From the NCBI RefSeq assembly GCF_038443385.1, contig NZ_CP151726.1:7378001-7442000 (forward strand): 64,000 nucleotides of DNA, given 5' to 3'. A model generated the notes under the pieces. The model saw only the letters and a program-made list of their open reading frames with translations, ran no database searches and was not told the DNA's origin. Made by a program: the position numbers and the translations under genes. The stretch comes from Stieleria varia (GTDB lineage: Bacteria; Planctomycetota; Planctomycetia; Pirellulales; Pirellulaceae). Positions 2,723 through 15,720 of this stretch are shown one piece after another (position 1 is the first letter of the stretch; each line of letters starts with the position of its first letter).

Positions 2723-5700
2723 TCAGGGCGTCTCGCCGGCTTTCCATTGGATGAGATTGCCTTTTGCATCTCCGCTAACGAGGGTCTTGCCGTCGTCGAC
2801 AAAGGCGACGCTGTAGACATAGTCGGTGTGCCCCTCCAAGGTCAGTACTTTGGTGCCGAAACGAGTCTCCCAGACATCCACTCCGTTGCCTTCAGGACTT
2901 TCTTTGCTCGCCACGCGTGTTCCATCTGGATTCATGGCAAAGAAATCGATGTTGTCAGCACCGTCAAATCGAAACTTCAGACTCGCCTGGTCGATGTCCC
3001 AAAGACTCATTCCCAAACCATAACCGAGTGCTGCGATGATTTGTTTGGAGTCGCGAGTGAATGCGACTTGACAGGGAAAGTACTCGGAACTGGAGGTCGG
3101 GAGTGACTGGCGAGGCGAATCTGCTACCAGCGACGTCAAGTCGATGGTTTGGCGGAGCTCCCCGGTGGAGACATTCCAGACCTTGATCCCGTCGCCGCCG
3201 ACGCTGACCAATTGTCGACCGTCGTCGCTGAACTCAATGTCGCCCGTAAAATCTTTGTGTCCAGACAGCCGTCTGATGGACTTGCCGTCGTCCGACTGCA
3301 GGATCTCTATTTCACCGCTGGACAAGGTCATCGCGACCAACGGTCCAGCGGGGGTGCTCGCGATGCTCTTGCCATCATGCATTTCACCTTCTCGACGCCA
3401 GCTTTGGTTAAGACGTGTCAAGCTGCCCGTGTTGGTGGAAAAGAACCATCGCGAGGAATCGTTTTGGATATCAATGTCAACAACGAATTCCGGAATCGCC
3501 TGCGGAAATAGTTGTCGTTGGTTCTTGTAGGTAAATGCGGTCTGCGGGTAGCCTCCGATCGCCACAAATCCGTTGTCGATGGGTTTGATGAATCGCAATG
3601 CACCCGTCGTCAACATTGTCGGAGGTTCGGGATCGACAGGCCATGTCTTGATTCTCCCATCGGTACCGCTGCTGAAGATTTTCATCCCATCGGGAGTGAC
3701 GCACAGATCGGTGACCACGCAGTGATGCCCCGTGAAAGTTTGAACCAAGTCTCTGGTCGTGACATCCCAGACTTTGACTGTCTGATCGACGCTGCCTGAC
3801 ACGAGTCTGCTACCGTCGCTGGTGAAAGCCAAGCAGGTGATTGTGTCCTTGTGAAGTCCGGAGACCGAACGCATCGCGACACCTGGCGTATCAGGCTTCG
3901 ACGTGTCCCAGATGATCAAATGGGAGCCTCCGGTTGCAATCAGACTGCCACGCGGACTCACTGCCAATGACCGAACATCTTCGATATCATCGGCCAGGAT
4001 TGTCGGTTCGGTTGGGTTGCTCAGATCAATCCGTGACAAACGTCCGTCATCACTGACCCATACGACTGACTCCCCGTCGGCAGAGAACTGGATATCTTGA
4101 ACGGCAGCCCCAGAACTTTGCAGCGACTGTGGCTCGACTTCCACGTCCACGCCGTCGAATTTCCACATTTGGATCACGCCTGATGCGTTGCCGCTGACCA
4201 GTCGCTTGCTGTCGGCGCTGAATTCCGCGCTGTTGATCGCATTGGGATAGACCCCGATGGGCAGCGATCTCGGGTAGATCCCCAGTGATACGCCTGGGGC
4301 GAGTACCTGTTGCCGATAATCACTGGTGTGTTGCAACTCGAGTTTTCCATCAATGTGTCCGACACAGATCTTCTGTCCGTCAGGACTGTACGCGACGCAT
4401 TTGATTTCAGAATACTTGCCCGCACGCGCGCCTTGGATGCCGCCGTGGTATGCATCGACGGTGTATACCCCGTACTGTTCGTTCTCTCCTCCTCCAGCGA
4501 CCAACGAATAGGTGAATGACTCCGAGGAACCCGTTCTGACGGAATGCAGGGAACGTGTCGGTGGGCTTAATGCGATTGATTTGATGGAGTTGTACGGAAG
4601 TTGTAGTTCTGAAAAACCATTTGCAAAGAGCTGTTTCAGATAAAAAAACTCCCAGTCTCGCTGGTCGTCTTGCGTCGATTCGAGGTTTTGAAATGCGGAT
4701 CCGGGGCGACCCCGTTGCCAATTGAGTAGAGCCAGTTTGACTTGGCTGCCGTAGGTGATCGATTGTGCTCGCTGGCTTTCGATTTCGGCCCGTTCACGTT
4801 GCCGATTGGCATTCTCTTGGGCGGTCGTGGCAGCCAGCGCGGACGCTTGCGCGTCTGCAAACGCTGCATTGGCTTCTTGGGTTGCCAATTGTGCTTGTGC
4901 CAACGCGTTCTCGGCCAGTCTTTCCTGTTTGGTTGCCTTGATGCCGAAAATGGTGGCGATGATTCCGACCGCTACGATCAGGTTCACCGCGATCACGCCG
5001 ATCACTTTCCAACGCCGCCGGTCTCGCATGCGACGGTCTCTTGCGATTCGGCTCGCCTCGATCATGCGACGTTCGTCGGGCGTCCAGTCACGCATCCCAT
5101 TATGGCCGGCTTCGACGATCGAAAGGTCTTCATCATCCAAAGGAGTTCCGATTTGACCGTTTTCCCATTGGCCCACACGATTCTCAAGGATCTTGCGCGC
5201 ATGTTGGCCGGGGTATGGCGAGGCCTCAAAACGTTCTCGCACCAGTGGGGCCAATGTGTCGTGGGCCAATCGTGTTGAAACGATTTCATTGACGACTTGC
5301 GCATCCGGCATCGTCAGCAAATAGGCGTCCTGAAATGCCGTCAGTAGCTTGGAAAGGTTGCCTTCGTGATGTTGATACGTTTCCCTCAACTGACTCATGG
5401 CGATTTGATTGGCCGTCCCCAATGGCGTTGTGTGCATCGCTAGAGCATCGATCAACAGATCGGGCGGAGCATATTCACCGCATTCCTGCTCCAACAATCC
5501 GAGTTGCTCCTTGAGGAAATCGGTCATCAGCATTCCTTTACGCCGTGACGCGTAGAGTTCACGTGTGAATCGGGGTGATGCTGAGTTTGCCGCTTTGGCA
5601 GAATCCCACATCCGTGAGAGCAGAATCTGTAGAGTCGGCGCGATATTGCCTTGCGAATCCTCCAGCAGATCATCGCAGATTTGATCCGCCAATCCGTCAT

Positions 5701-7069
5701 CGATACTCAGTTGATAGTGAGTCGCCAGGTCGGGATCGACGATCGGCCCCAGAATGGCATCGATCACACCTTCCCGATCCAGGTGCTCCAAGAAGACTTC
5801 GTTGAACAGGACTTCCCGCTGCTCAAGCTGTTTTTTGACATCGGCCAACCACTCTTTTCTGAAGCCCAGTATCAATCGACCTTGGGGACGTTGCTGCGGG
5901 TTTTCGAACACTTCTTGGACCGCGTCCATGAACCGTTTCATCTCGTCGGAGAGCGACGCGTTGGGACGAGTTTCGATTTCTTCCAGTTGATCCAGGATGA
6001 TGGTCAACGGTCGACCGGTTTTCGCTTCATGCTCAAGCCATGTTTCCTTCGGTGAGCGATCCTCGACAATGTCAGGAAACGCATCGATGACGGTTCCCAA
6101 GAGTCCCCTGTCTCGATCGCGTCTCAGATAGGTGACTTCGTGTTTGGACTCCAGTCGTGGGATCAGTCCCGCGTCGAGCAACGATGACTTGCCCACCCCG
6201 GATCGACCGTAAAAGAGAATGACAGGTGCTGATGTTGGCGTTGTGATTTTTTTGTACAGGTCGCGGATTTCCTTGCCACGTCCAAAAAAGACCGCTGCGT
6301 CTCGCTTGCGATACCAGTTCAAGTAGCGATAGGGTTTTGCCGGCAATTCCATTCTCGGCAGTGGCGGCAAAGCCAGTAGAGGATTCTTGGATGCGGCGGG
6401 CAAGTTCCATCGGGCAACGTGGGGGTGTTTCTCTGCGATCGTCATCGTCCATGGAAACACATCGACGTTCGAATCCGCGTCCGTTGGATCATTGGAAACC
6501 AACCCGAGAGCACGCGTTCGTCCCGTCATCTTGGTCCGGGCTGCCGCTGTCGCCGTCTCAAATGCAGTCTGCAGATCGCAGTGGTTGGCAAGTGCGCGAT
6601 AGAAGCATGTTGAAAAATCGGTGGCCACCTGATCGTTGATCGGCTGGCGCGTGCTGATCACACAAGGCATGCCGGCATCCAGCAAGGCCTGTGTTTGCTG
6701 GGCGGTTGAGCATCCATTGAGAAACGCCAGCTGCAGAGATTGTTGAAGCCCGAGAAAACTTGCCATGCCCTCGGCACCGGCGATTTCCGCATCGCCACCG
6801 ACAGACTCCAACAGCAACTGAGTCGCTCCAGCGTGGCCCGCGAAATGAAAGATCGCGATTCGATCTTGATACCGAGGGTCCAAAAACACTTGAAACACGT
6901 CATCGGCTGCCGCTCCATTGCGTTCAACCACTTCGCAGAGACCCTTGGCAGCGGCCGACTGCAATGCGTCGCGAATCTGCTTCAACTCAACCTTCAGACT
7001 GGCCAGATGTTTACCATCGTTCACATAGTCGTTTGCGAAGGCAAGGAAGATGACGGGTGGTCGAAACAT
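2723..7069 (-). CDS. CHAT protease - nSTAND NTPase - WD40 membrane-anchored protein
   Basis: A 1448-residue multidomain protein. Residues 1-180 form a CHAT (caspase-like) domain with both catalytic residues visible: His79 in FHFAGHAG and Cys120 in LNGCST. Residues 260-620 are a STAND-type NTPase of the nSTAND1 kind: FFGRGKEI, Walker A GRSGVGKSS (288-296), Walker B LTIILDQLEEI (Asp360). A membrane segment (about 688-710) and an Ala/Glu coiled coil (711-790) follow, then WD40 repeats to the end (for example LVSGSVDQTVKVWDV). Known CHAT/STAND proteins couple ligand sensing by repeats to proteolysis of a partner. It is last in a minus-strand run after the Hsp90-like and TPR genes, 101 bp behind the latter. 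The substrate is unknown. Confidence 0.9.
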   Translation of the reverse strand: MFRPPVIFLAFANDYVNDGKHLASLKVELKQIRDALQSAAAKGLCEVVERNGAAADDVFQVFLDPRYQDRIAIFHFAGHAGATQLLLESVGGDAEIAGAEGMASFLGLQQSLQLAFLNGCSTAQQTQALLDAGMPCVISTRQPINDQVATDFSTCFYRALANHCDLQTAFETATAAARTKMTGRTRALGLVSNDPTDADSNVDVFPWTMTIAEKHPHVARWNLPAASKNPLLALPPLPRMELPAKPYRYLNWYRKRDAAVFFGRGKEIRDLYKKITTPTSAPVILFYGRSGVGKSSLLDAGLIPRLESKHEVTYLRRDRDRGLLGTVIDAFPDIVEDRSPKETWLEHEAKTGRPLTIILDQLEEIETRPNASLSDEMKRFMDAVQEVFENPQQRPQGRLILGFRKEWLADVKKQLEQREVLFNEVFLEHLDREGVIDAILGPIVDPDLATHYQLSIDDGLADQICDDLLEDSQGNIAPTLQILLSRMWDSAKAANSASPRFTRELYASRRKGMLMTDFLKEQLGLLEQECGEYAPPDLLIDALAMHTTPLGTANQIAMSQLRETYQHHEGNLSKLLTAFQDAYLLTMPDAQVVNEIVSTRLAHDTLAPLVRERFEASPYPGQHARKILENRVGQWENGQIGTPLDDEDLSIVEAGHNGMRDWTPDERRMIEASRIARDRRMRDRRRWKVIGVIAVNLIVAVGIIATIFGIKATKQERLAENALAQAQLATQEANAAFADAQASALAATTAQENANRQRERAEIESQRAQSITYGSQVKLALLNWQRGRPGSAFQNLESTQDDQRDWEFFYLKQLFANGFSELQLPYNSIKSIALSPPTRSLHSVRTGSSESFTYSLVAGGGENEQYGVYTVDAYHGGIQGARAGKYSEIKCVAYSPDGQKICVGHIDGKLELQHTSDYRQQVLAPGVSLGIYPRSLPIGVYPNAINSAEFSADSKRLVSGNASGVIQMWKFDGVDVEVEPQSLQSSGAAVQDIQFSADGESVVWVSDDGRLSRIDLSNPTEPTILADDIEDVRSLAVSPRGSLIATGGSHLIIWDTSKPDTPGVAMRSVSGLHKDTITCLAFTSDGSRLVSGSVDQTVKVWDVTTRDLVQTFTGHHCVVTDLCVTPDGMKIFSSGTDGRIKTWPVDPEPPTMLTTGALRFIKPIDNGFVAIGGYPQTAFTYKNQRQLFPQAIPEFVVDIDIQNDSSRWFFSTNTGSLTRLNQSWRREGEMHDGKSIASTPAGPLVAMTLSSGEIEILQSDDGKSIRRLSGHKDFTGDIEFSDDGRQLVSVGGDGIKVWNVSTGELRQTIDLTSLVADSPRQSLPTSSSEYFPCQVAFTRDSKQIIAALGYGLGMSLWDIDQASLKFRFDGADNIDFFAMNPDGTRVASKESPEGNGVDVWETRFGTKVLTLEGHTDYVYSVAFVDDGKTLVSGDAKGNLIQWKAGETP

Positions 7070-7170
7070 GGCAGTTGTGGTTTCGCATTCACGTATTCAC
7101 GACGGTGGACGATGAGCCAATCATAGTCTATCCGTTGTCATGTGATCGCAATGCTCGCTGTCGTTGCCAT

Positions 7171-9876
7171 TCAATCATCCTCGTCAGCAAACTCGTCGTC
7201 GTCATCTTCCATGTCGTCATCTTCCATGTCGTCATCGTCCATGTCGTCGTCGTAGTCGCCATCGTAGTCGTCATCGTCTTCATCACCGAATTCTTCTCCG
7301 GCAGCCATTTCTGCCGGGGACAAACGGATGCCTTGCCAAACGATGCCGGGCGAATCCTTGAATCCTTCTTCGATAAGTTGCATGCCTGCAAACTCCGCGG
7401 GCAGTTGAAAACACAGTGATTGCGCCGCCAAGACTTCTTCTTCTGCTTGCTCTTCACTTTCTGCCAACACGCCCCATTCGCCCAAGTAGGCCGGCCAGTC
7501 TTCCTGGTGCATCATTCGTCCGGGGAAGGACTGCCAGGAGTCGTCCAAGGGTTGCGAAACGAGACAACGATAGTAGTTCACCTGACCCGAGTCACGTTTC
7601 TCACGTTGCTCGGCAAAGAACTCCTCTGAGGCACATCCGGCCTGCAGCATTCGAGTCTGAAATCGGCTGACGAGATCCGGTGCGGAAGCCCGAGCGGCAG
7701 CTTCACAACGATGCAGCAGCGCGGAAATGCCTGCGGGCGAGAGCATGTCCGCTTCGTACAGCGGAGTTTCCGATGCCCGTTTCAGGAACTCCGCCGCCAC
7801 GGCATGCTCACCCAATTGTGAATTGGCGCAGCCGGTGATCACATCCAAGTGAAACGCGTCTTGGCCGATCAGCTCTCGTTCACGTGTGATCGCTGCCTTG
7901 GCGCCCGCGGGGTCACCTTGTTCCATCAGCCCGATGCTGCGGTAATAGTCGATCCAAGGTTCGACACCGGCATCGGCTTGGTATTTGTCCAAGTACGACA
8001 GCATGACCTCGAAACGTTCGAGGCTGAAAGCCAACAACGCGGCTTCCCAGGCGACGCGGGTTTCCTCGGTGCCCTCTCGGATACACAAGTCCAGCACGTG
8101 CAAGGCATCCCGTGGCCGATCGGTGTCGCGGTACAGCGACGCCAAGCGCAAGGCGATGTCACCTGCATTTCGCAGCAGCCGAAATCCTCTCGCGTAACAT
8201 CGTTCTGCTTCGCCATGATTGTCTTCGGCCATGAAGTGGTCGCCGCAGCGCATGTAGGTTCTCGGCCCGACATCATCCTGTTGCAGCGTTTTGCGAAAGA
8301 TCGGATCGAGACGTTCGCTGGTGATCGTTGCCCCAAACTCTTCATTGGGTCCAAAGCGGATGCGATTGCCGAGATCTCCCAACAATGAAAGCGCCGCGGG
8401 ATCATCATCGAATTTGCCCACCAATCGGTTCGCCCATTGCCAGACCGTCTCAGCTTCGGCGTGGTCACCGAGCATGTAGCTGATCATGAAAACCAACCCG
8501 CACGCGTCTTCACGATGGGTGATCGTGTCCATGTCGATCGCCATGACCTCATCGCGGAGTCCCTTCAACTGTTCCAGGTATCCTTCCTCGACCACTTCGC
8601 TCAACCGTCGACCGAACTCCGAGATCACGGGCGCCAAAGGTGTGTCCGGTGCCGATGTTTCCTCGCCCTGCTTGTCGGAGGTAAGCTCGGAATCATCGTG
8701 GCTGGACGAACTGCTGTCGCCGTGCCCGTTGGCGGATGTCGCGACAGGACGTCCGTAGATCGCCAGTGGAGTGGTTGGAAAGTCTTCGTCTTGCAGAGCG
8801 GTCAATCGCCGCAACGACAGCCAATCACTTGCCGCGCTGGCTCGTTTTTGCAACTGCTTGCCGAGTTTTTCAGCAAGTCGATCTTGTCCAGAGAGCAAGC
8901 TATTGGCGATCAGTCTCAGGCGAACTTCGAACCACAGGTTGGTGCCGTGCAAATCTTGTAGTTTCTTGTCCCAACGGGTCAGGATCTCAGCCGCTGCTTC
9001 GTACTGCTGCGAAACCGTCAATGCCAAGGCTTCGTTCAGCATTTTCAGATAGTCGTACATGGGGCACTCGCCTTCGGGCGGATGATGCTCCCAAGCCGGG
9101 TTGCTTTGCATCTCGGCGGGTTGGCCGGCGGAAATCAGCAGCGCGTCCAAGTCGTACAGCACACGGATTTTGGCTTCCAACGGCAAAGTGACTTCTTCGC
9201 TCTCGGCCAACTCCAACGCTTCGCGACACAGCTTGATCGCTTCGTCGTGTCGTCCGGCCAAGCACGCCAACGAGGCGAGTTTCTTCTTGACCAACCAGCG
9301 TCGATCGCCGCGGTCGGACAAAGGAGATGAGCCGTCCAGGACCAAGCTGCACTGGTGCGACGCCATCTCGGCATCGTCCGCAGCAAGGTAGACATCGCAC
9401 GAGTATTCGCGAAAGCATCCCACACATGCCAGTTTGCCGGTCTTGCGACAAACGTGCAGTCCGTCGGCGATGCACGCTTGCATTCCTTCGCTGTTGTAAC
9501 CTTCGATCTGCCCCGTGGCTTCGGCCAAGTTCTCGTAGGCGCAGGAACTCATCTGGTACACCAGAGCTTCGTAAAGCTGTGGTGGCATGTCGGGCTGGAT
9601 CTTTCGACATTGCTCTTCGCTTTCCAGCAGCGAGATCAACTCGATCGCCCGTTCTCGCATGGTTTGAAAGTCCAGCAAATACTGGGCTTCGTCCATCTGA
9701 TGGAACACGGAGGTGATATAGAAATAGGCACGCTGCTCGCGTTTTGCTTTTTGCCTCAATTGTCCGTAGAGATCGAACGACGTCTTGTAGATTCCGGGTT
9801 GAATCAACTCACCGGCTTGTTCGGCCAGCGATTCGAGTTGCTTGTCAATTTCGCTGAGGTCATCAAAGTCGTTCAT
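7171..9876 (-). CDS. TPR-repeat protein with long acidic C-terminal tail
   Basis: A 901-residue, apparently cytosolic helical protein with no signal peptide. TPR-like helix pairs (for example YARGFRLLRNAGDIALRLAS, LASLYRDTDRPRDALHVLDL) run through most of the length, separated by a Ser/Asp-rich linker around residue 420. The last 40 residues are almost entirely Asp and Glu with Tyr and Met. TPR proteins often hold Hsp90-type chaperones or CHAT proteases, and both kinds lie on either side of this gene, so an adaptor role is inferred. The ATG at 9876 is chosen; the frame is open to 9960, but the added 28 residues look non-coding. Function is otherwise unknown. Confidence 0.85.
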   Translation of the reverse strand: MNDFDDLSEIDKQLESLAEQAGELIQPGIYKTSFDLYGQLRQKAKREQRAYFYITSVFHQMDEAQYLLDFQTMRERAIELISLLESEEQCRKIQPDMPPQLYEALVYQMSSCAYENLAEATGQIEGYNSEGMQACIADGLHVCRKTGKLACVGCFREYSCDVYLAADDAEMASHQCSLVLDGSSPLSDRGDRRWLVKKKLASLACLAGRHDEAIKLCREALELAESEEVTLPLEAKIRVLYDLDALLISAGQPAEMQSNPAWEHHPPEGECPMYDYLKMLNEALALTVSQQYEAAAEILTRWDKKLQDLHGTNLWFEVRLRLIANSLLSGQDRLAEKLGKQLQKRASAASDWLSLRRLTALQDEDFPTTPLAIYGRPVATSANGHGDSSSSSHDDSELTSDKQGEETSAPDTPLAPVISEFGRRLSEVVEEGYLEQLKGLRDEVMAIDMDTITHREDACGLVFMISYMLGDHAEAETVWQWANRLVGKFDDDPAALSLLGDLGNRIRFGPNEEFGATITSERLDPIFRKTLQQDDVGPRTYMRCGDHFMAEDNHGEAERCYARGFRLLRNAGDIALRLASLYRDTDRPRDALHVLDLCIREGTEETRVAWEAALLAFSLERFEVMLSYLDKYQADAGVEPWIDYYRSIGLMEQGDPAGAKAAITRERELIGQDAFHLDVITGCANSQLGEHAVAAEFLKRASETPLYEADMLSPAGISALLHRCEAAARASAPDLVSRFQTRMLQAGCASEEFFAEQREKRDSGQVNYYRCLVSQPLDDSWQSFPGRMMHQEDWPAYLGEWGVLAESEEQAEEEVLAAQSLCFQLPAEFAGMQLIEEGFKDSPGIVWQGIRLSPAEMAAGEEFGDEDDDDYDGDYDDDMDDDDMEDDDMEDDDDEFADEDD

Positions 9877-9992
9877 GGACGGTTTCCGTGATCGATGGAA
9901 TAAAAGTACGTCAGGCTTTCTAGCCTGACACGGAGTGTTGGACGCAACCCGGAAAGGCAACGCTGTGAAGCATTTTGACGGTCAAAAATACT

Positions 9993-10046
9993 AGCACGAA
10001 GCGCAAGCGAGTGAATAAGGTGACTCACTCACTTGCGCTTCGTGCT
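9993..10046. repeat. Repeat family C hairpin within the Hsp90-TPR intergenic gap
   Basis: Inverted repeat with 22-bp arms (9993-10014 and 10025-10046, one mismatch), core GAAGCGCAAGCGAGTGA. It lies in the 251-bp gap between the Hsp90-like gene and the TPR gene, where it may attenuate or process the transcript. The same element with A for G changes is at 30021-30081. Confidence 0.85.
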
Positions 10047-10127
10047 GGTAATTCCTGCGTTTCAGCAAAGAAAATGTTTTACAGCGTTGCCGGAAAGGCT
10101 GACGCAAATGTCTCTGGCGGTGGTGGA

Positions 10128-12005
10128 TCAGGTATCGCGGCCCCAGAGGACTTCTGCGATCCAATCGAGGTCCTCGGACTGCATTTGTTGTGTCTTTCGA
10201 TCCGAAGCGGCACCGGCGGCATGCAGTGCATTGCTGACAAGCAAACGAACAACGTTGGCCAGTGGGCTGCGTGTGCCACGTTCCAAGGCTCTTTTGACGA
10301 GTCGGTGTTCGCGGTTGAGGATGACTTCGTTTTGATCGGCCGGTGAGTTTTCAAAGTGGGCGTCGATCATGCGTTGGAACCCTCGTGGGATCTCACCTTC
10401 TTTTTTGAGATCTTCGAACGTTTTGGCCAGTTCGTAGCGTTCGTTCAAGAAAGCCATAACGGGTTGGTTTTGTCGATAGGACGCCCACAGCACTTTCGCC
10501 CCCGTGCCACTGAGGAACTCCGACCACTCCGCACTAGCGTCTTCCATGTCGGACATGCCCAAGACGCATTGATCGAACCCGGGACTCGAGGGGCTCGCGA
10601 CACGAACGTCGACGACACTTTCCTGAGTGTCGGCGACCATGGACGCCAACAGCAATTCTTCGAAACTTCTCAACGCGTGCACACACAGCGTCTCGGTGCC
10701 GTCGAACACGTCGCTCAGATACCTTTCTTGGCGACGATCCGCGTTGTACCAAATCACCTGATCGGCTTCGGACTCATAAAGCGGATCGGCTTCGCATCTT
10801 TCGAGGATCTGTTCGAACGTCAGGTCGCCCTGGGTCGTCGAAAACCGGTAGCAGCTTCTCAGCAATTGACGCAGCGGTTCTTCGTCGAGAGCGGAACCTG
10901 CGATCGTGAATCGGTGCCAACTGATGATGGCTTCCAATCGTGCCGGCTGTTTTTCCGCCAATTCGTTCAAGTGGTCATAGATGATCTTGGCCAGCGTCGC
11001 TTTGGTGCGAGCGAACTGACCGTCTCGCACCAGGTCCTCGCGACTGGCGGTGGGCGAGCAATCGGGCAGCTCCAAAATGCCGCGCAGGAAAGATCCCCAG
11101 GAGGGCAACAAGTCTTGGACGTGACGTGAGATCACCATGCGGCGGATGGTGGCGGCAACCACGGAGTCGTCGGTGAAACCCGGCGTGCGTTGAGGCGAGA
11201 TGTACAGGGCACCTTCGATCACCACCGGCTTTTCGACTTTGATCGGAATCACGTCCAGGGGTGTTTCTTCGAAATAGCTGGCCAAGTCCAGTTCGATGGT
11301 TTCTTCGTCATGGCCGCTCTCAAACCAAGACGCTTGGATCACATTGATCCGCTGCGAAGATCCGTTGAGAAAGATCGGCACCGGCAAGAAATCCGCATAA
11401 CGTTTGACCGCCAGTTCCAGCATCTCCGGGTCGATGGCAAAGGACACGTAGTCTTTTTTCAGATGCAGACAAACGCTGGTTCCGTTCTTGTCGCGTTCGC
11501 AGGGGGACAACTCGATTTCCGTCCCAGCGCCGGCGACCCAGCGGACCGGTTCGACGTCGTCCGACTTGCGGCTTTCCACGACGAGTTGGTCGGCCAACAT
11601 GAAGGCGCTGAACAGGCCGATTCCGAATTGACCGATCAGTTCATCGCCCGATCCGCTGACACTCTGGCGAGCTTCCTCGCTGCCGCGTCCTTTCAACAGA
11701 CCGGTGATCCCGATGCCGAGCGTTCCCAAATACGATTCGGCTTCCTCGGCACTGAGCCCGATGCCGTCATCGGTGAAAGTGATCGTTCCATTTTCGGCGT
11801 CTTGGACGATATCGATCCGTCCTTGAAAACTCAGATCGCGACTACGACGACGCATGATCGCGTCATGCGAGTTCTGGATCAGTTCACGAATCGGAGTGTC
11901 CAGCCGGCTGTAGAGCGAGGACCCCATGATCTCGATGATGCCGGCAATGTCGACCTTAAAGGGAATCCGGCGATTCCACATGTTGGTTGGATCCTGGTGA
12001 TTCAA
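10128..12005 (-). CDS. Hsp90-like (HtpG-related) GHKL ATPase
   Basis: A 625-residue protein with an Hsp90 N-terminal ATPase: RELIQNSHDAI carries the catalytic Glu and Mg-binding Asn, DDGIGL is the G1 box, and IGQFGIGLFSAFMLAD is the lid/G2 region. The middle domain keeps the Hsp90-type loop ending in SRED near residue 320. The C-terminal third is not recognisably like HtpG. This is therefore a divergent paralogue, not the housekeeping htpG. It starts 36 bp after rarA stops on the same strand and heads the Hsp90-TPR-CHAT run, so a role in loading or folding the large STAND protein is plausible but inferred. A second in-frame ATG is at 11981. Confidence 0.88.
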   Translation of the reverse strand: MNHQDPTNMWNRRIPFKVDIAGIIEIMGSSLYSRLDTPIRELIQNSHDAIMRRRSRDLSFQGRIDIVQDAENGTITFTDDGIGLSAEEAESYLGTLGIGITGLLKGRGSEEARQSVSGSGDELIGQFGIGLFSAFMLADQLVVESRKSDDVEPVRWVAGAGTEIELSPCERDKNGTSVCLHLKKDYVSFAIDPEMLELAVKRYADFLPVPIFLNGSSQRINVIQASWFESGHDEETIELDLASYFEETPLDVIPIKVEKPVVIEGALYISPQRTPGFTDDSVVAATIRRMVISRHVQDLLPSWGSFLRGILELPDCSPTASREDLVRDGQFARTKATLAKIIYDHLNELAEKQPARLEAIISWHRFTIAGSALDEEPLRQLLRSCYRFSTTQGDLTFEQILERCEADPLYESEADQVIWYNADRRQERYLSDVFDGTETLCVHALRSFEELLLASMVADTQESVVDVRVASPSSPGFDQCVLGMSDMEDASAEWSEFLSGTGAKVLWASYRQNQPVMAFLNERYELAKTFEDLKKEGEIPRGFQRMIDAHFENSPADQNEVILNREHRLVKRALERGTRSPLANVVRLLVSNALHAAGAASDRKTQQMQSEDLDWIAEVLWGRDT

Positions 12006-12041: not shown

Positions 12042-13364
12042 TCAGGATCGAAGTTTTTGCTTGATCGTCTTGAGTCTTTGTTGGAGCTCAAGTTCGAAAC
12101 CGCGTGAGACGGGATGGTAATACGTGCGGTCGTCGCCCAAGTAGTCCTGTGTGGCCACGCCGTCGTTTTCGTTGTGACTATAAATGTAGCCATCTCCGTG
12201 CCCCAGTTGTTTCGCACCGCCGTAGTGAGCGTCTCGCAGATGAGCCGGGACCGGTAAGAGCTTCTTTTCTTGGACGTCCTTGACCGCCGCACCGATCGCG
12301 GTGGTCGCGGCATTGCTTTTGGGAGCAAGTGCCAGATAGGCCACCGTTTGGCTAAGCGTCAGTTGACATTCTGGCAACCCGATCCACTCACAGGCTTGCA
12401 TGGCAGCGACGGCAAGCGGCAGGGCTTGTGGATCCGCGTTGCCGATGTCTTCACTGGCCAGGATGACCAACCGACGACAAAGGAATCGGATGTCTTCGCC
12501 GCCCTCGAGCATTCTCGCCAACCAATAGATGGCCGCGTCGACGTCACTGCCTCGGATGCTCTTGATCAGAGCGCTGGCCAAGTTGTAGTGGTCGTCTCCC
12601 GTCGCATCGTATCCCCCCAGTCGCTTGCCCAATGATTCGGCGACCGCCGACTTGTCCACCACCGGCGGACTCGATTGGCAGCTGCCCACCGCGATTTCCA
12701 ATGCCGACAATGCTCGACGGGCATCGCCTTCGCAAGCATCTGCCAAGTAATCAAGTGCGTCTGCCGTCACGGTGACGTCGCAATCACCCAGTCCACGCTC
12801 ATGGTCTGACATGCAGCGATCCAACAGCGATCGAATTTCCTCCTGTGACAGCATGTTGAGTTGAAAGATCTGGCTGCGGCTGAGCAACGCTCCGTTGACA
12901 GCGAAATAGGGATTGCTGGTGGTCGCGCCGATCAGAGAAACAATGCCCGCCTCGACATCGGGCAGCAAAGCATCTTGCTGGCTCTTGCTGAATCGGTGAA
13001 TCTCATCGATGAACAACAACGGACGCGGTGCGCCGGTGGCGACCAAATCACCTGCCCAAGCGAGCACTTCGCGAACGTCTTTGACCCCGCCCGTCACCGC
13101 GCTGAGTTTGCGAATCTCGCTGCCGGTCTCGGTGGCCAGCAGGTGCGCCAATGTGGTCTTTCCGGTTCCGGGAGGACCGAAGAGAATGACGGACCCGAGT
13201 CGACGAGCGTCAATCATCCGCCGCAACAGTTTGCCTGGGCCTAAAATATGCTGCTGACCGACGTACTCACTCAAATTCTGCGGACGCATGCGAGCCGCTA
13301 GAGGCTGCGCGGCGCTGAGAAAATCCTTTTCTTGGGCATCGAACAGCGACGGAATTTGATTCAT
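12042..13364 (-). CDS. rarA: Replication-associated recombination protein A (AAA+ ATPase)
   Basis: The RarA/MgsA AAA+ ATPase acts at stalled replication forks together with SSB and RecA. The 440-residue product has Walker A GPPGTGKTT, the family-specific Walker B region IDEIHRFSKSQQDALLP, and sensor 1 GATTSNPYF, followed by the C-terminal MgsA tetramerisation region (AMQACEWIGLPE, HYGGAKQLGHG). The ATG at 13364 gives the usual N-terminus MNQIPSLFDAQ; an upstream extension to 13487 is judged non-coding. Its start codon overlaps that of the divergent DUF1499 gene. The Hsp90-like gene follows after 36 bp and may share the transcript. Confidence 0.95.
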   Translation of the reverse strand: MNQIPSLFDAQEKDFLSAAQPLAARMRPQNLSEYVGQQHILGPGKLLRRMIDARRLGSVILFGPPGTGKTTLAHLLATETGSEIRKLSAVTGGVKDVREVLAWAGDLVATGAPRPLLFIDEIHRFSKSQQDALLPDVEAGIVSLIGATTSNPYFAVNGALLSRSQIFQLNMLSQEEIRSLLDRCMSDHERGLGDCDVTVTADALDYLADACEGDARRALSALEIAVGSCQSSPPVVDKSAVAESLGKRLGGYDATGDDHYNLASALIKSIRGSDVDAAIYWLARMLEGGEDIRFLCRRLVILASEDIGNADPQALPLAVAAMQACEWIGLPECQLTLSQTVAYLALAPKSNAATTAIGAAVKDVQEKKLLPVPAHLRDAHYGGAKQLGHGDGYIYSHNENDGVATQDYLGDDRTYYHPVSRGFELELQQRLKTIKQKLRS

Positions 13365-13836
13365 GAACATGCCCGCAAAAAGAACGGCTCCTCGAAAAAT
13401 GATTTGGTTCATCATCTTAGCGTCCATCGGGATTCCGCTGGCCCTGGTGGTCTGGCGGGTGGACGACTGGAATCGCGATTGGACCACTAATCACGCGTCG
13501 TTGGAAGACACGGCAGTGCGTCCCGAGTTGCGTCCGCAAATATTTACGGGGGCGGTCGCCGATGTAGCTGACCGGATTGAACGCTGGAGCGAGCAACAAT
13601 CCCACTGGGACTTGGTGCAGCGCAACGACACCGAATGGGAAACGACACTCAAAATGACTCGCACAACGGGACTATTTCGCTTCGTCGACGATGTCACGGT
13701 GCAGTTGCGTTCAGCACCGGAGTCAGAGGGGCATGTGACAATGTACGCGACAAGTCAGTCTCGGATCGGAAAAGGTGACTTGGGGCAAAACCCGAGAAAT
13801 CTCGCCGAACTGGTGCGTGGCGTGAATGCCATGTGA
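13363..13836 (+). CDS. DUF1499 family membrane-anchored protein
   Basis: A 157-residue protein of the DUF1499 family, function unknown. An N-terminal membrane anchor (IWFIILASIGIPLALVVW, about residues 14-31) is followed by the typical DUF1499 pattern, VRPELRPQIFTG, then W-x-L-V and RFVDDVTVQLR with the terminal QSRIGKGDLGQNPRN. The ATG at 13363 overlaps the rarA start codon on the other strand in a single CATG. An ATG at 13399, just before the membrane segment, is an alternative start that would remove the overlap. Confidence 0.85.
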   Translation: MNMPAKRTAPRKMIWFIILASIGIPLALVVWRVDDWNRDWTTNHASLEDTAVRPELRPQIFTGAVADVADRIERWSEQQSHWDLVQRNDTEWETTLKMTRTTGLFRFVDDVTVQLRSAPESEGHVTMYATSQSRIGKGDLGQNPRNLAELVRGVNAM

Positions 13837-14096: not shown

Positions 14097-15720
14097 TTGA
14101 TTTAATCGATATTGGGAACGCAAGGGTGAGCCGTGGGCCGTAAGGCCAATGCCACCTATTCTCTACTCTATCGAGTGGCGCGTTATGTTTTTGGCACGGA
14201 ATTTGCGCTGCTGAATTGGTTTCAATTTGTCCGCCAATTTGTCACCAATTCAATGCTCGATCCCAAATCACACGCCACTGAGAACGAACAGCAATTCTGT
14301 CGCGCAAAAACATTGCTCGCGGATTTGCTTCAGCTCCCTACGATCGTTAAAGAGCTTGAGCAACAAGACGCCAGTTCCGCTGCAAAGATTTACACACAAG
14401 CACCAACACTTTGGCTACTGGTGCTGCAACGTCTCGGGGGAGGCCTCACTCTTGATCAAGCCGTCAGTGATCTGATCGACAATCACAAAGACCTCCTGCC
14501 CCCTAACCGGCGAGTTACTGAAGGGACGCTTTCAAAAAACAATTCCGCTTACAACCAAGCGAGAAAAAAACTGCCGATTAAGGTTGTCCAAGACTTTTCC
14601 AATCGCATTTGCGATCACCTGGCACGCAAGGCCCAGCCAGCTTTTCTTGAGCGGCGTGTGTTCATCCTCGACGGAACGACGATCACACTGCCACCCACAC
14701 CGGCGCTCAAGAAAGCATTTCCACCAGCATCCAACCAGTACGGTGAATCCGTTTGGCCCGTTGCGATGCTCATGGTCGCCAATGAAATGCAGACCGGTTG
14801 CGCGTTAATGCCACAGATCGATCCGATGTACGGCCCCAACAATTCCAGCGAAACCAGACAAGCCGAGAAAGTCATCGACCGACTTCCAGAGAATTCGATT
14901 GTCAAGGCCGATAGCGGTTTCGGCGTGTTCTCAGTGGCTTTTCATTGCCAAACGCGTGGGAAAGAGTTCTTACTGCGTCTGACCAAACAGCGATACAAGG
15001 CATACCTCAAGAACGCCACGCTGGTAGAGGAAGGGCCTGGCTACGTAACGCACCATTTGATCTGGAAGCCATCGAGCAAAGAACGCAGGAACCACCAGAA
15101 TCTTCCTGAGGATGCAGCTTGTGAAGTCTTTATTCACCAAGTCGAATTGGACAACGGTCAAACGCTGGAGTTGGTCACCAACATCGAAGCGGACGCCTTG
15201 TCCGTGGGCGAGCTTTACCGTCGCCGCTACGATGTGGAATTCGACATCCGGGACCTGAAAGTCACGATGGACACCGAGAATATCCGTGCCAAGAGCGTGG
15301 ACACGATGAAAAAGGAGCTGATGGGATCGGTGATCGCCTACAATCTGGTGTCCCAGTTGCGCAAGCAGGCCGCCAAGTTGATTAATATCTCGCCTCGACG
15401 ACTGAGCTTCAGTGGCGCGTGGCAGGACTTTCAGAGTGGCCTGCTTCGCAAGGAATTAACGACACTGGAGCAATGGACGCTTGCGTACCAGAAGACGCTC
15501 ATTGATGCCTCGACGAGAAAGCTTCCCAATCGCAAGACACCGCGGAGCTACCCTCGAGTCGCGCATACTCGCCGCCAAAAGAGCACCAAGTTCCAACGTT
15601 TGGAAAGAAAAATAAAATCCAAAGCCTCCGAATCACCACCCGATTGACGACAAAGTAGGTGGCATTGGCCGTAAGGCCCACGGCTCACCCTTGCGTTCCC
15701 AATTTCGATTAAATCAACAG
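14094..15720 (+). mobile_element. IS4-family insertion sequence with 65-bp terminal inverted repeats
   Basis: A 1627-bp element bounded by inverted repeats of 65 bp (14094-14158 and 15656-15720) that differ at only three positions and begin CTGTTGATTTAATCGA. It carries one transposase gene. No target-site duplication is visible (left flank CCGTGGGC, right flank GCCACTAG), so the insertion may have been followed by a deletion or recombination. The near-identical ends and intact gene suggest it is young. Confidence 0.92.
14133..15647 (+). CDS. IS4-family DDE transposase
   Basis: Transposase of the IS4 family with the complete DDE set: first Asp in FILDGTTI, second Asp in VKADSGFG, and the IS4 signature Y-2-R-3-E-6-K in YRRRYDVEFDIRDLK. 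The longest frame (504 residues) starts with GTG inside the left inverted repeat. The ATG at 14253 would give 464 residues, closer to the family norm, and may be the real start. No frameshift or internal stop is seen, so the enzyme should be active. It is flanked only by the element's own ends. Confidence 0.93.
   Translation: MGRKANATYSLLYRVARYVFGTEFALLNWFQFVRQFVTNSMLDPKSHATENEQQFCRAKTLLADLLQLPTIVKELEQQDASSAAKIYTQAPTLWLLVLQRLGGGLTLDQAVSDLIDNHKDLLPPNRRVTEGTLSKNNSAYNQARKKLPIKVVQDFSNRICDHLARKAQPAFLERRVFILDGTTITLPPTPALKKAFPPASNQYGESVWPVAMLMVANEMQTGCALMPQIDPMYGPNNSSETRQAEKVIDRLPENSIVKADSGFGVFSVAFHCQTRGKEFLLRLTKQRYKAYLKNATLVEEGPGYVTHHLIWKPSSKERRNHQNLPEDAACEVFIHQVELDNGQTLELVTNIEADALSVGELYRRRYDVEFDIRDLKVTMDTENIRAKSVDTMKKELMGSVIAYNLVSQLRKQAAKLINISPRRLSFSGAWQDFQSGLLRKELTTLEQWTLAYQKTLIDASTRKLPNRKTPRSYPRVAHTRRQKSTKFQRLERKIKSKASESPPD

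Follow-up and report, generated by a model that had tools for sequence, protein, structure and literature searches.

A non-HtpG Hsp90 and its co-occurring TPR protein in Stieleria varia, a probable two-gene chaperone system

The stretch of Stieleria varia DNA analyzed here (64,000 nucleotides of contig NZ_CP151726.1, positions 7,378,001 to 7,442,000; hereafter the window) carries on one strand a gene for an Hsp90-like ATPase, a gene for a tetratricopeptide repeat (TPR) protein and a gene for a CHAT protease fused to a STAND NTPase and WD40 repeats. The first two probably make up a bacterial Hsp90 system of two genes, in which an Hsp90 other than HtpG is served by a dedicated TPR co-chaperone or adaptor, the CHAT gene being a chance neighbour. 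The near-obligate co-occurrence of the two genes, linked or not, and the folds predicted for their products are the part of this reading that computation establishes. The pair consists of:

10128-11981, minus strand: Hsp90-like ATPase chaperone gene, 617 amino acids (aa) from ATG, of a non-HtpG clade; first core part of the pair
7171-9876, minus strand: TPR partner gene, 901 aa from ATG; second core part of the pair

A model's earlier reading of the sequence alone had reported three genes on the same strand. All three open reading frames (ORFs) are indeed present, on the minus strand, with corrected start sites. The ATG at 11981 of the Hsp90-like gene matches its homologues, 12005 being an upstream TTG, and the mechanical ORF of the TPR gene begins at TTG 9960, while the ATG start gives the 901-residue protein.

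Co-occurrence and linkage of the Hsp90 and TPR genes

Among 347 genomes of the class, the TPR family was found in 27, all of them within the 28 that carry the Hsp90 clade of the window, and in none of the 319 others (Fisher P about 2e-39, uncorrected for genome relatedness). The best match in each of these 28 genomes has an E value no higher than 6e-131, and the genome that comes next is at 1e-63. The exception, G305, has an Hsp90 gene truncated by a contig end and gave no TPR match even at E 0.001. Both genes also occur in two genomes from outside the class, G120 and G065, and 17 genomes with less close Hsp90s gave no TPR-family match. Eight genera (g1, g133, g203, g214, g231, g232, g239 and g247) mix pair-bearing and pair-free genomes; read by hand, both genes covary in all eight. 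Over the 18 genomes for which both sequences were available, the distance matrices of the two proteins, compared with no control for the species tree, show a correlation of r = 0.90, a value reached in 0 of 10000 permutations; the coefficient is 0.93 in the 11 linked and again 0.93 in the 7 unlinked genomes.

The two genes adjoin each other in 10 of the 27 pair-carrying genomes. Seen from the Hsp90 side, adjacency was found at 10 of 28 clade loci, with a contig end truncating three of the non-adjacent loci on the downstream side; seen from the TPR side, in a collection of species genomes, it was found at 22 of 77 loci, with the Hsp90 gene directly upstream. The remaining TPR loci comprise 34 in which 2.3 kb or more of upstream sequence contains no Hsp90, and 21 that are too short to judge. 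Eight linked loci are common to both sets, leaving 24 distinct ones besides the window, and wherever the genes are linked, Hsp90 is upstream and on the same strand. The gap between them, 251 nucleotides (nt) in the window, ranges from 21 to 676 nt at the other linked loci, measured from match ends. Single-contig genomes in which the pair is separated have the two genes about 282 kb (G024) and about 30 kb (G478) apart. The records of the 77 TPR loci are planctomycete, including two bins labelled Kuenenia, with the exception of L173, filed as Pelobacter.

No third gene tracks the pair. Clustering of ORFs over 106 loci (the window, the 77 TPR and the 28 Hsp90 loci, eight held twice) gave, besides the two families and their shadow ORFs, clusters of 17 loci at most. 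Subgroups of TPR loci share an ABC-transporter-type ATPase (16 loci) or a phosphoesterase-like gene (7 loci), both named from a look at their sequences only. A survey of gene neighbourhoods had been proposed together with the sequence-only reading. For the Hsp90-TPR half its outcome is favourable, given the near-perfect co-occurrence, the adjacency at both sets of loci and the analogous pairs in other phyla described below, and the Hsp90-TPR partnership is well supported.

Two tandem TPR copies stand behind one Hsp90 gene at L065 (identical to L161), L066 (identical to L163) and L152; L153 also has two copies, on a short contig from which Hsp90 is absent. Such copies may reflect a division of labour between TPR partners.

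The Hsp90-like protein

The 617-residue protein is a member of the Hsp90 superfamily, as indicated by its Pfam matches (PF00183 at 26.9 bits, cut-off 24.4; PF13589 at 34.6 bits, cut-off 25), its motifs and its full-length matches to solved Hsp90s. The intact N-terminal ATPase motifs ascribed to it were all found (RELIQNSHDA, DDGIG and GQFGIG), and the SRED motif of the middle domain is present. The protein is built of an N-terminal GHKL ATPase, a middle domain in which SRED holds the catalytic arginine, and a C-terminal domain. Its model, made with 21 sequences, has a mean pLDDT of 81.9 and superimposes on solved full-length Hsp90s with TM scores of mostly 0.64-0.73 at an rmsd near 7 Å; against the crystal structure of ADP-bound E. 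coli HtpG the TM score is 0.46. In the model, the last helix (595-613) contains the conserved sequence DLDWIAEALWG and stops four residues short of the C-terminus.

The score against the HtpG equivalog NF003555 is 217.8 bits, under the cut-off of 371, and that against the PRK14083 HSP90 family equivalog NF010683, the best NCBIfam match, is 280.2 bits, under the cut-off of 455. With the latter, two other members of the clade score 273.0 (L058) and 266.8 bits (L085), and the Listeria and Streptomyces proteins 799.4 and 825.4 bits. A FastTree phylogeny of 115 Hsp90s puts the window protein in a clade of 26 rows (support 100), separate from the HtpG clade of 49 rows (support 100); the run gave long-branch warnings, which make the branching order of the remaining lineages unsure. 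By sequence comparison, then, the window Hsp90 is assigned to a distinct, non-HtpG clade. A protein search of the 9.72-Mb single-contig S. varia genome, in which all nine first-look candidates were scored, gave a single Hsp90, so that the genome seems to be without HtpG.

The TPR partner

The claim of a 901-residue TPR protein proved sound: TPR_2 (28.0 bits, cut-off 27) and TPR_12 (30.2 bits, cut-off 30.1) pass the Pfam cut-offs, if barely, and a double TPR superhelix is predicted. The model, made with 53 sequences, has a mean pLDDT of 90.4 and is divided as follows:

about 3-365: first helical superhelix
about 380-410: low-confidence linker
about 415-760: second helical array
764-852: small alpha/beta domain
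862-901: disordered acidic tail

The first array resembles MalT domain III (Z 27.0, 4.0 Å over 337 residues) and the Rap/NprR peptide receptors (Z about 20 to 23). The second resembles the TPRs of O-GlcNAc transferase at Z 12.6, a level at which repeats can match by arrangement alone. Structure searches with the whole TPR model assigned no fold to the alpha/beta domain, and the partner has no sequence match in the PDB. Three cysteines are conserved in the family, C143, C151 and C154, the last two forming a CxxC, and a PGVVWQG-type motif recurs ahead of the tail. The protein had also been described as acidic-tailed. This is true of the window protein, in which 29 of the last 37 residues are D or E, and does not extend to several family members, which have no such tail; the tail was therefore rejected as a hallmark of the family.

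Partners of other non-HtpG Hsp90s

Similar gene arrangements are found in other phyla. An Hsp90-like gene is followed by a partner of 774 aa, annotated as a TPR protein, in Xanthomonas vasicola, of 764 aa in Pseudomonas, of 1033 aa in Streptomyces globosus, of 324 and 320 aa in Listeria and of 769 aa on a Salmonella contig, and, with one gene intervening, by a 474-aa TPR gene in Pseudanabaena. In E. coli SE15 (L256, 5001-9144), the 611-aa Hsp90-like ECSF_RS19960 is followed after 1 nt by the 768-aa hypothetical protein ECSF_RS19965, and the pair sits between fdhD and yiiG; the Hsp90-like gene is strain-variable, occurring in 245 of 5426 complete E. coli genomes. Identity of the SE15 partner to its counterparts in Salmonella, Pseudomonas and Xanthomonas is 38-76%; between the E. 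coli and Salmonella partners on one side and those of Xanthomonas and Pseudomonas on the other it is 38-41%. The TPR family of the window is related to the partner type of gammaproteobacteria and some planctomycetes (profile A4; hhalign probability 88%, E 3e-6); its comparison with the PRK14083-type partner, at 26%, is unconvincing.

Profiles of three partner families matched 32 of 40 further non-HtpG loci, 30 of them strongly, against 0 of 49 HtpG loci. A rule that uses no profile, asking for an ORF of 250 aa or more that begins on the same strand no further than 60 nt from the Hsp90 stop, was positive at 33 of 38 testable non-HtpG loci and at 4 of 38 testable HtpG loci; it is mechanical, and a few spurious ORFs are possible on both sides. 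Locus L092 satisfies it with an ORF of 372 aa starting at -4. TPR families top the list for the 38 ORFs downstream of non-HtpG genes, the top two with 7 of 38 each (best 25 of 39 families), and no TPR family is among the best 25 of 47 families for the 40 ORFs downstream of HtpG genes. Of the individual partners, those of Streptomyces and Pseudanabaena and the first one of Listeria have a Pfam TPR match over the cut-off.

These results have their limits. The profile test is partly circular, 25 of the 32 positive loci having supplied profile rows; the positives outside the training set are L090, L200, L206, L209, L211, L216 and L226, and L090 and L211 are weak. Eight of the 40 non-HtpG loci (L007, L086, L088, L089, L198, L215, L217 and L237) gave no partner-profile match, L215 and L237 being cut by contig ends. 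The Pfam TPR match lies under the cut-off in the Xanthomonas, Pseudomonas and second Listeria partners, and of the four planctomycete partners scanned, two have none.

The short TPR-like partners of PRK14083-type Hsp90s (alignment A3: L009, L202, L207 and others) have invariant cysteines in the sequences DCxACE and SCAEVPH, which may form a metal or redox site.

Surroundings of the pair in the window

The other features near the pair are:

2723-7069, minus strand: CHAT protease - nSTAND1 NTPase - WD40 gene, 1448 aa; a neighbour, no conserved part of the Hsp90-TPR pair
9956-10091, no strand: palindromic repeat between the TPR and Hsp90-like genes; dispersed family in the genome, terminator-like in the scan
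12042-13487, minus strand: RarA/MgsA-type AAA+ ATPase gene, upstream neighbour of the Hsp90-like gene
14133-15647, plus strand: DDE transposase gene (PF01609), just past rarA

Hsp90, TPR and CHAT genes had been described as one run. Their order and strand bear this out, and the TPR-to-CHAT gap is 101 nt; the description breaks down at the 251-nt gap between Hsp90 and TPR genes, with its terminator-like palindrome. This element consists of nested inverted arms, is positive in a terminator scan with a stem of 20 pairs, and has 81 matches across the genome, both orientations counted. Its many copies and the result of the scan identify it as a dispersed palindromic repeat, REP- or MITE-like, which may keep the two transcripts apart. 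The region has no excess of terminator-like sites (3 found against 5.1 expected), and the window has no CIRCE heat-shock element at up to 3 mismatches.

The window genes tested near the trio were rarA, the DDE transposase gene and proB-like, purF-like, symporter and FGGY-kinase genes. The gene rarA was not found at the other loci examined (28 Hsp90-clade and 77 TPR loci).

The CHAT-nSTAND1-WD40 gene

The 1448-residue protein had been correctly recognized. His79, Cys120 and the GRSGVGKSS sequence are in place, and its domains lie far over the Pfam cut-offs (CHAT PF12770, 49.6 bits against 24; nSTAND1 PF20703, 110.4 against 27.1; WD40, 129.2 against 27). It is the proposed trio of chaperone, adaptor and sensor, said to stand or fall with the three genes being neighbours in related genomes, that had to be given up. 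Within the stretches covered, a CHAT/STAND gene adjoins Hsp90 at 0 of 28 related loci and the TPR gene at 0 of 77 (8 loci in both sets), and the orthologues are located elsewhere. Of 346 other genomes, three (G330, G185 and G237) gave an orthologue, 43-44% identical across most of residues 4-760, and 9 more gave partial matches. Only G237 also has the Hsp90-TPR pair, on other contigs; G330 and G185 have neither a Hsp90-clade nor a TPR-family match. A three-gene immune unit was rejected on the surveys of neighbourhood and co-occurrence, and the CHAT-STAND-WD40 gene would be an independent, rarely conserved gene of conflict type, adjacent by chance.

WD40 repeats are weak in the orthologue at L251, where the contig ends, and not detected at L250 and L252 at E 1e-6. 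The orthologues keep the N-terminal effector and NTPase and possibly exchange the sensor; the weak or undetected WD40 region fits this, because a protein that changes its sensor is expected to vary there.

The defence-island setting that had been envisaged was not seen either, the tested neighbours being rarA and proB-like, purF-like, transporter and sugar-kinase genes. Matches to PADLOC (2023 library) are limited to the ATPase domain, the WD40 region or very weak stretches. In TPR-CHAT (Craspase), TPR and CHAT lie within one protein, next to a gRAMP effector. The window does not have this arrangement: its CHAT domain forms one protein with STAND and WD40, and the TPR protein has a gene of its own; gRAMP was not searched for. 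Plasmid records held no match to the TPR family. Phage records gave 18 matches, of which one is full-length, a Salmonella contig filed as phage.

Interpretation and alternatives

In the two-gene system that we favour, the TPR protein would bind the Hsp90 dimer and act as an adaptor or co-chaperone, holding or selecting clients. Since the EEVD tail is lacking, the contact would have to be made through a surface other than the EEVD/carboxylate clamp, perhaps involving the conserved C-terminal helix of Hsp90. Besides the shortcomings of the partner surveys given above, several observations weigh against such a system. There is no trace of an EEVD tail in 12 of 12 aligned C-termini of the Hsp90 clade, window included. 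The palindromic repeat may separate the Hsp90 and TPR transcripts in the window. The genes were not found adjoining in 17 of the 27 pair-carrying genomes, partly on account of short contigs. In the 347-genome surveys (Hsp90, TPR and CHAT/STAND), scoring was limited to the two or three best first-look candidates of each genome, and the absences depend on those. The correlation of distances, finally, suffers from the missing species-tree control. The main rival, distinctly less probable in our judgement, is that the TPR protein is an obligate client of the Hsp90, the two forming a dedicated folding pair whose output lies in the TPR protein. The co-occurrence data would be identical; in some genomes a single clade Hsp90 is accompanied by two TPR copies (in tandem in L065 and L066), and the TPR protein has a conserved C-terminal domain and motifs of its own. 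Nevertheless, the TPR-like families paired with several of the non-HtpG Hsp90 lineages differ considerably, which looks more like adaptors than like one fixed client.

A role of the pair itself as an accessory module for defence or stress has about the same, rather low, likelihood. It would agree with the patchy distribution (27 of 347 class genomes, with presence and absence within genera), with the strain-variability of the gammaproteobacterial-type relative in E. coli and with the occurrence of related genes in plasmid records, some of them chromosome-like; it agrees less well with the absence of a recurrent defence-type neighbour, with PADLOC matches confined to the ATPase domain or very weak, and with the housekeeping surroundings of the SE15 pair. 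Ordinary co-inheritance along the species tree with no functional coupling, which would yield just such a correlation of distances and would explain the clustering of the pair in some genera (g236, g3), seems to us improbable: the genes covary in eight polymorphic genera though often unlinked, as in G024. Least probable by our estimate, and hardly tenable, is a three-part immune system in which Hsp90 and the TPR adaptor load a protease-armed STAND sensor. Adjacency on a common strand with a short TPR/CHAT gap and the intact CHAT and P-loop residues speak for it, as does a known chaperone-NLR link, DnaJ acting with the bacterial NLR-like bNACHT25, where htpG deletion is without effect (PMC12169576). 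The arrangement recurs at none of the related loci, and two of the three genomes with an orthologue of the sensor, G330 and G185, have no match to either the Hsp90 clade or the TPR family.

Relation to known systems

Eukaryotic TPR co-chaperones of Hsp90 include Hop/Sti1, FKBP51/52 and PP5. As with the cytosolic Hsp90 of eukaryotes, an Hsp90 ATPase is here paired with a TPR solenoid protein, and the two nearly always co-occur in the planctomycete genomes searched; in contrast, the window clade is without the C-terminal EEVD, and the partner is a genetically coupled protein of 900 aa with a double array and an extra C-terminal domain. HtpG is a homologous Hsp90, matched at the 217.8 bits given above; the window protein differs in lying under the NF003555 cut-off and outside the 49-row clade, and HtpG loci have no partner-profile matches (0 of 49). 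The PRK14083 family (NF010683) is the nearest in NCBIfam, and in its members from Streptomyces and Listeria a TPR gene immediately follows the Hsp90 gene; the window clade, however, scores 266.8-280.2 bits (three members scanned) against the cut-off of 455, and its partner is from another TPR family. The gammaproteobacterial pair of E. coli SE15 is alike in its 611-aa Hsp90-like protein, in the 768-aa gene 1 nt downstream and in a partner profile related to the window TPR family, and differs in partner family and in having a separate Hsp90 branch. CnoX (YbbN) works with GroEL. It belongs with another chaperone, with no Hsp90 involved, and is similar in being a bacterial thioredoxin-TPR protein in the proteostasis network (PMC10490939).

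Bacterial HtpG was split into groups A, B and C by Chen (2006; PMC1525184), and the co-evolution study of Press (2013; PMC3708813) states that no obligate Hsp90 co-chaperones have been identified in bacteria and sets the hsp90B and hsp90C paralogues aside. The PRK14083-type lineage probably falls within Group C, or "hsp90C", of these authors, an equation that we infer. The words tetratricopeptide and TPR are absent from the main texts of both papers. Among the matches listed by a literature search, from whose coverage subscription papers and preprints are mostly missing, no title or abstract opening describes a bacterial Hsp90-TPR gene pair.

Significance

The Hsp90-TPR pair merits follow-up; on present evidence, the NLR-like story does not. 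More tentatively, and with somewhat less than even confidence, we suggest that outside HtpG the bacterial Hsp90s of several phyla (Planctomycetota, Actinomycetota, Pseudomonadota, Bacillota and perhaps Cyanobacteriota) may be two-component machines, each lineage with a TPR co-chaperone of its own. The Hsp90-TPR principle would then be no eukaryotic invention, and some of the pairs could load clients for accessory functions in stress or immunity. With a TPR partner that is coupled to it genetically, the point at which Hsp90 gained its TPR co-chaperones can be put to a direct test, in E. coli as well.

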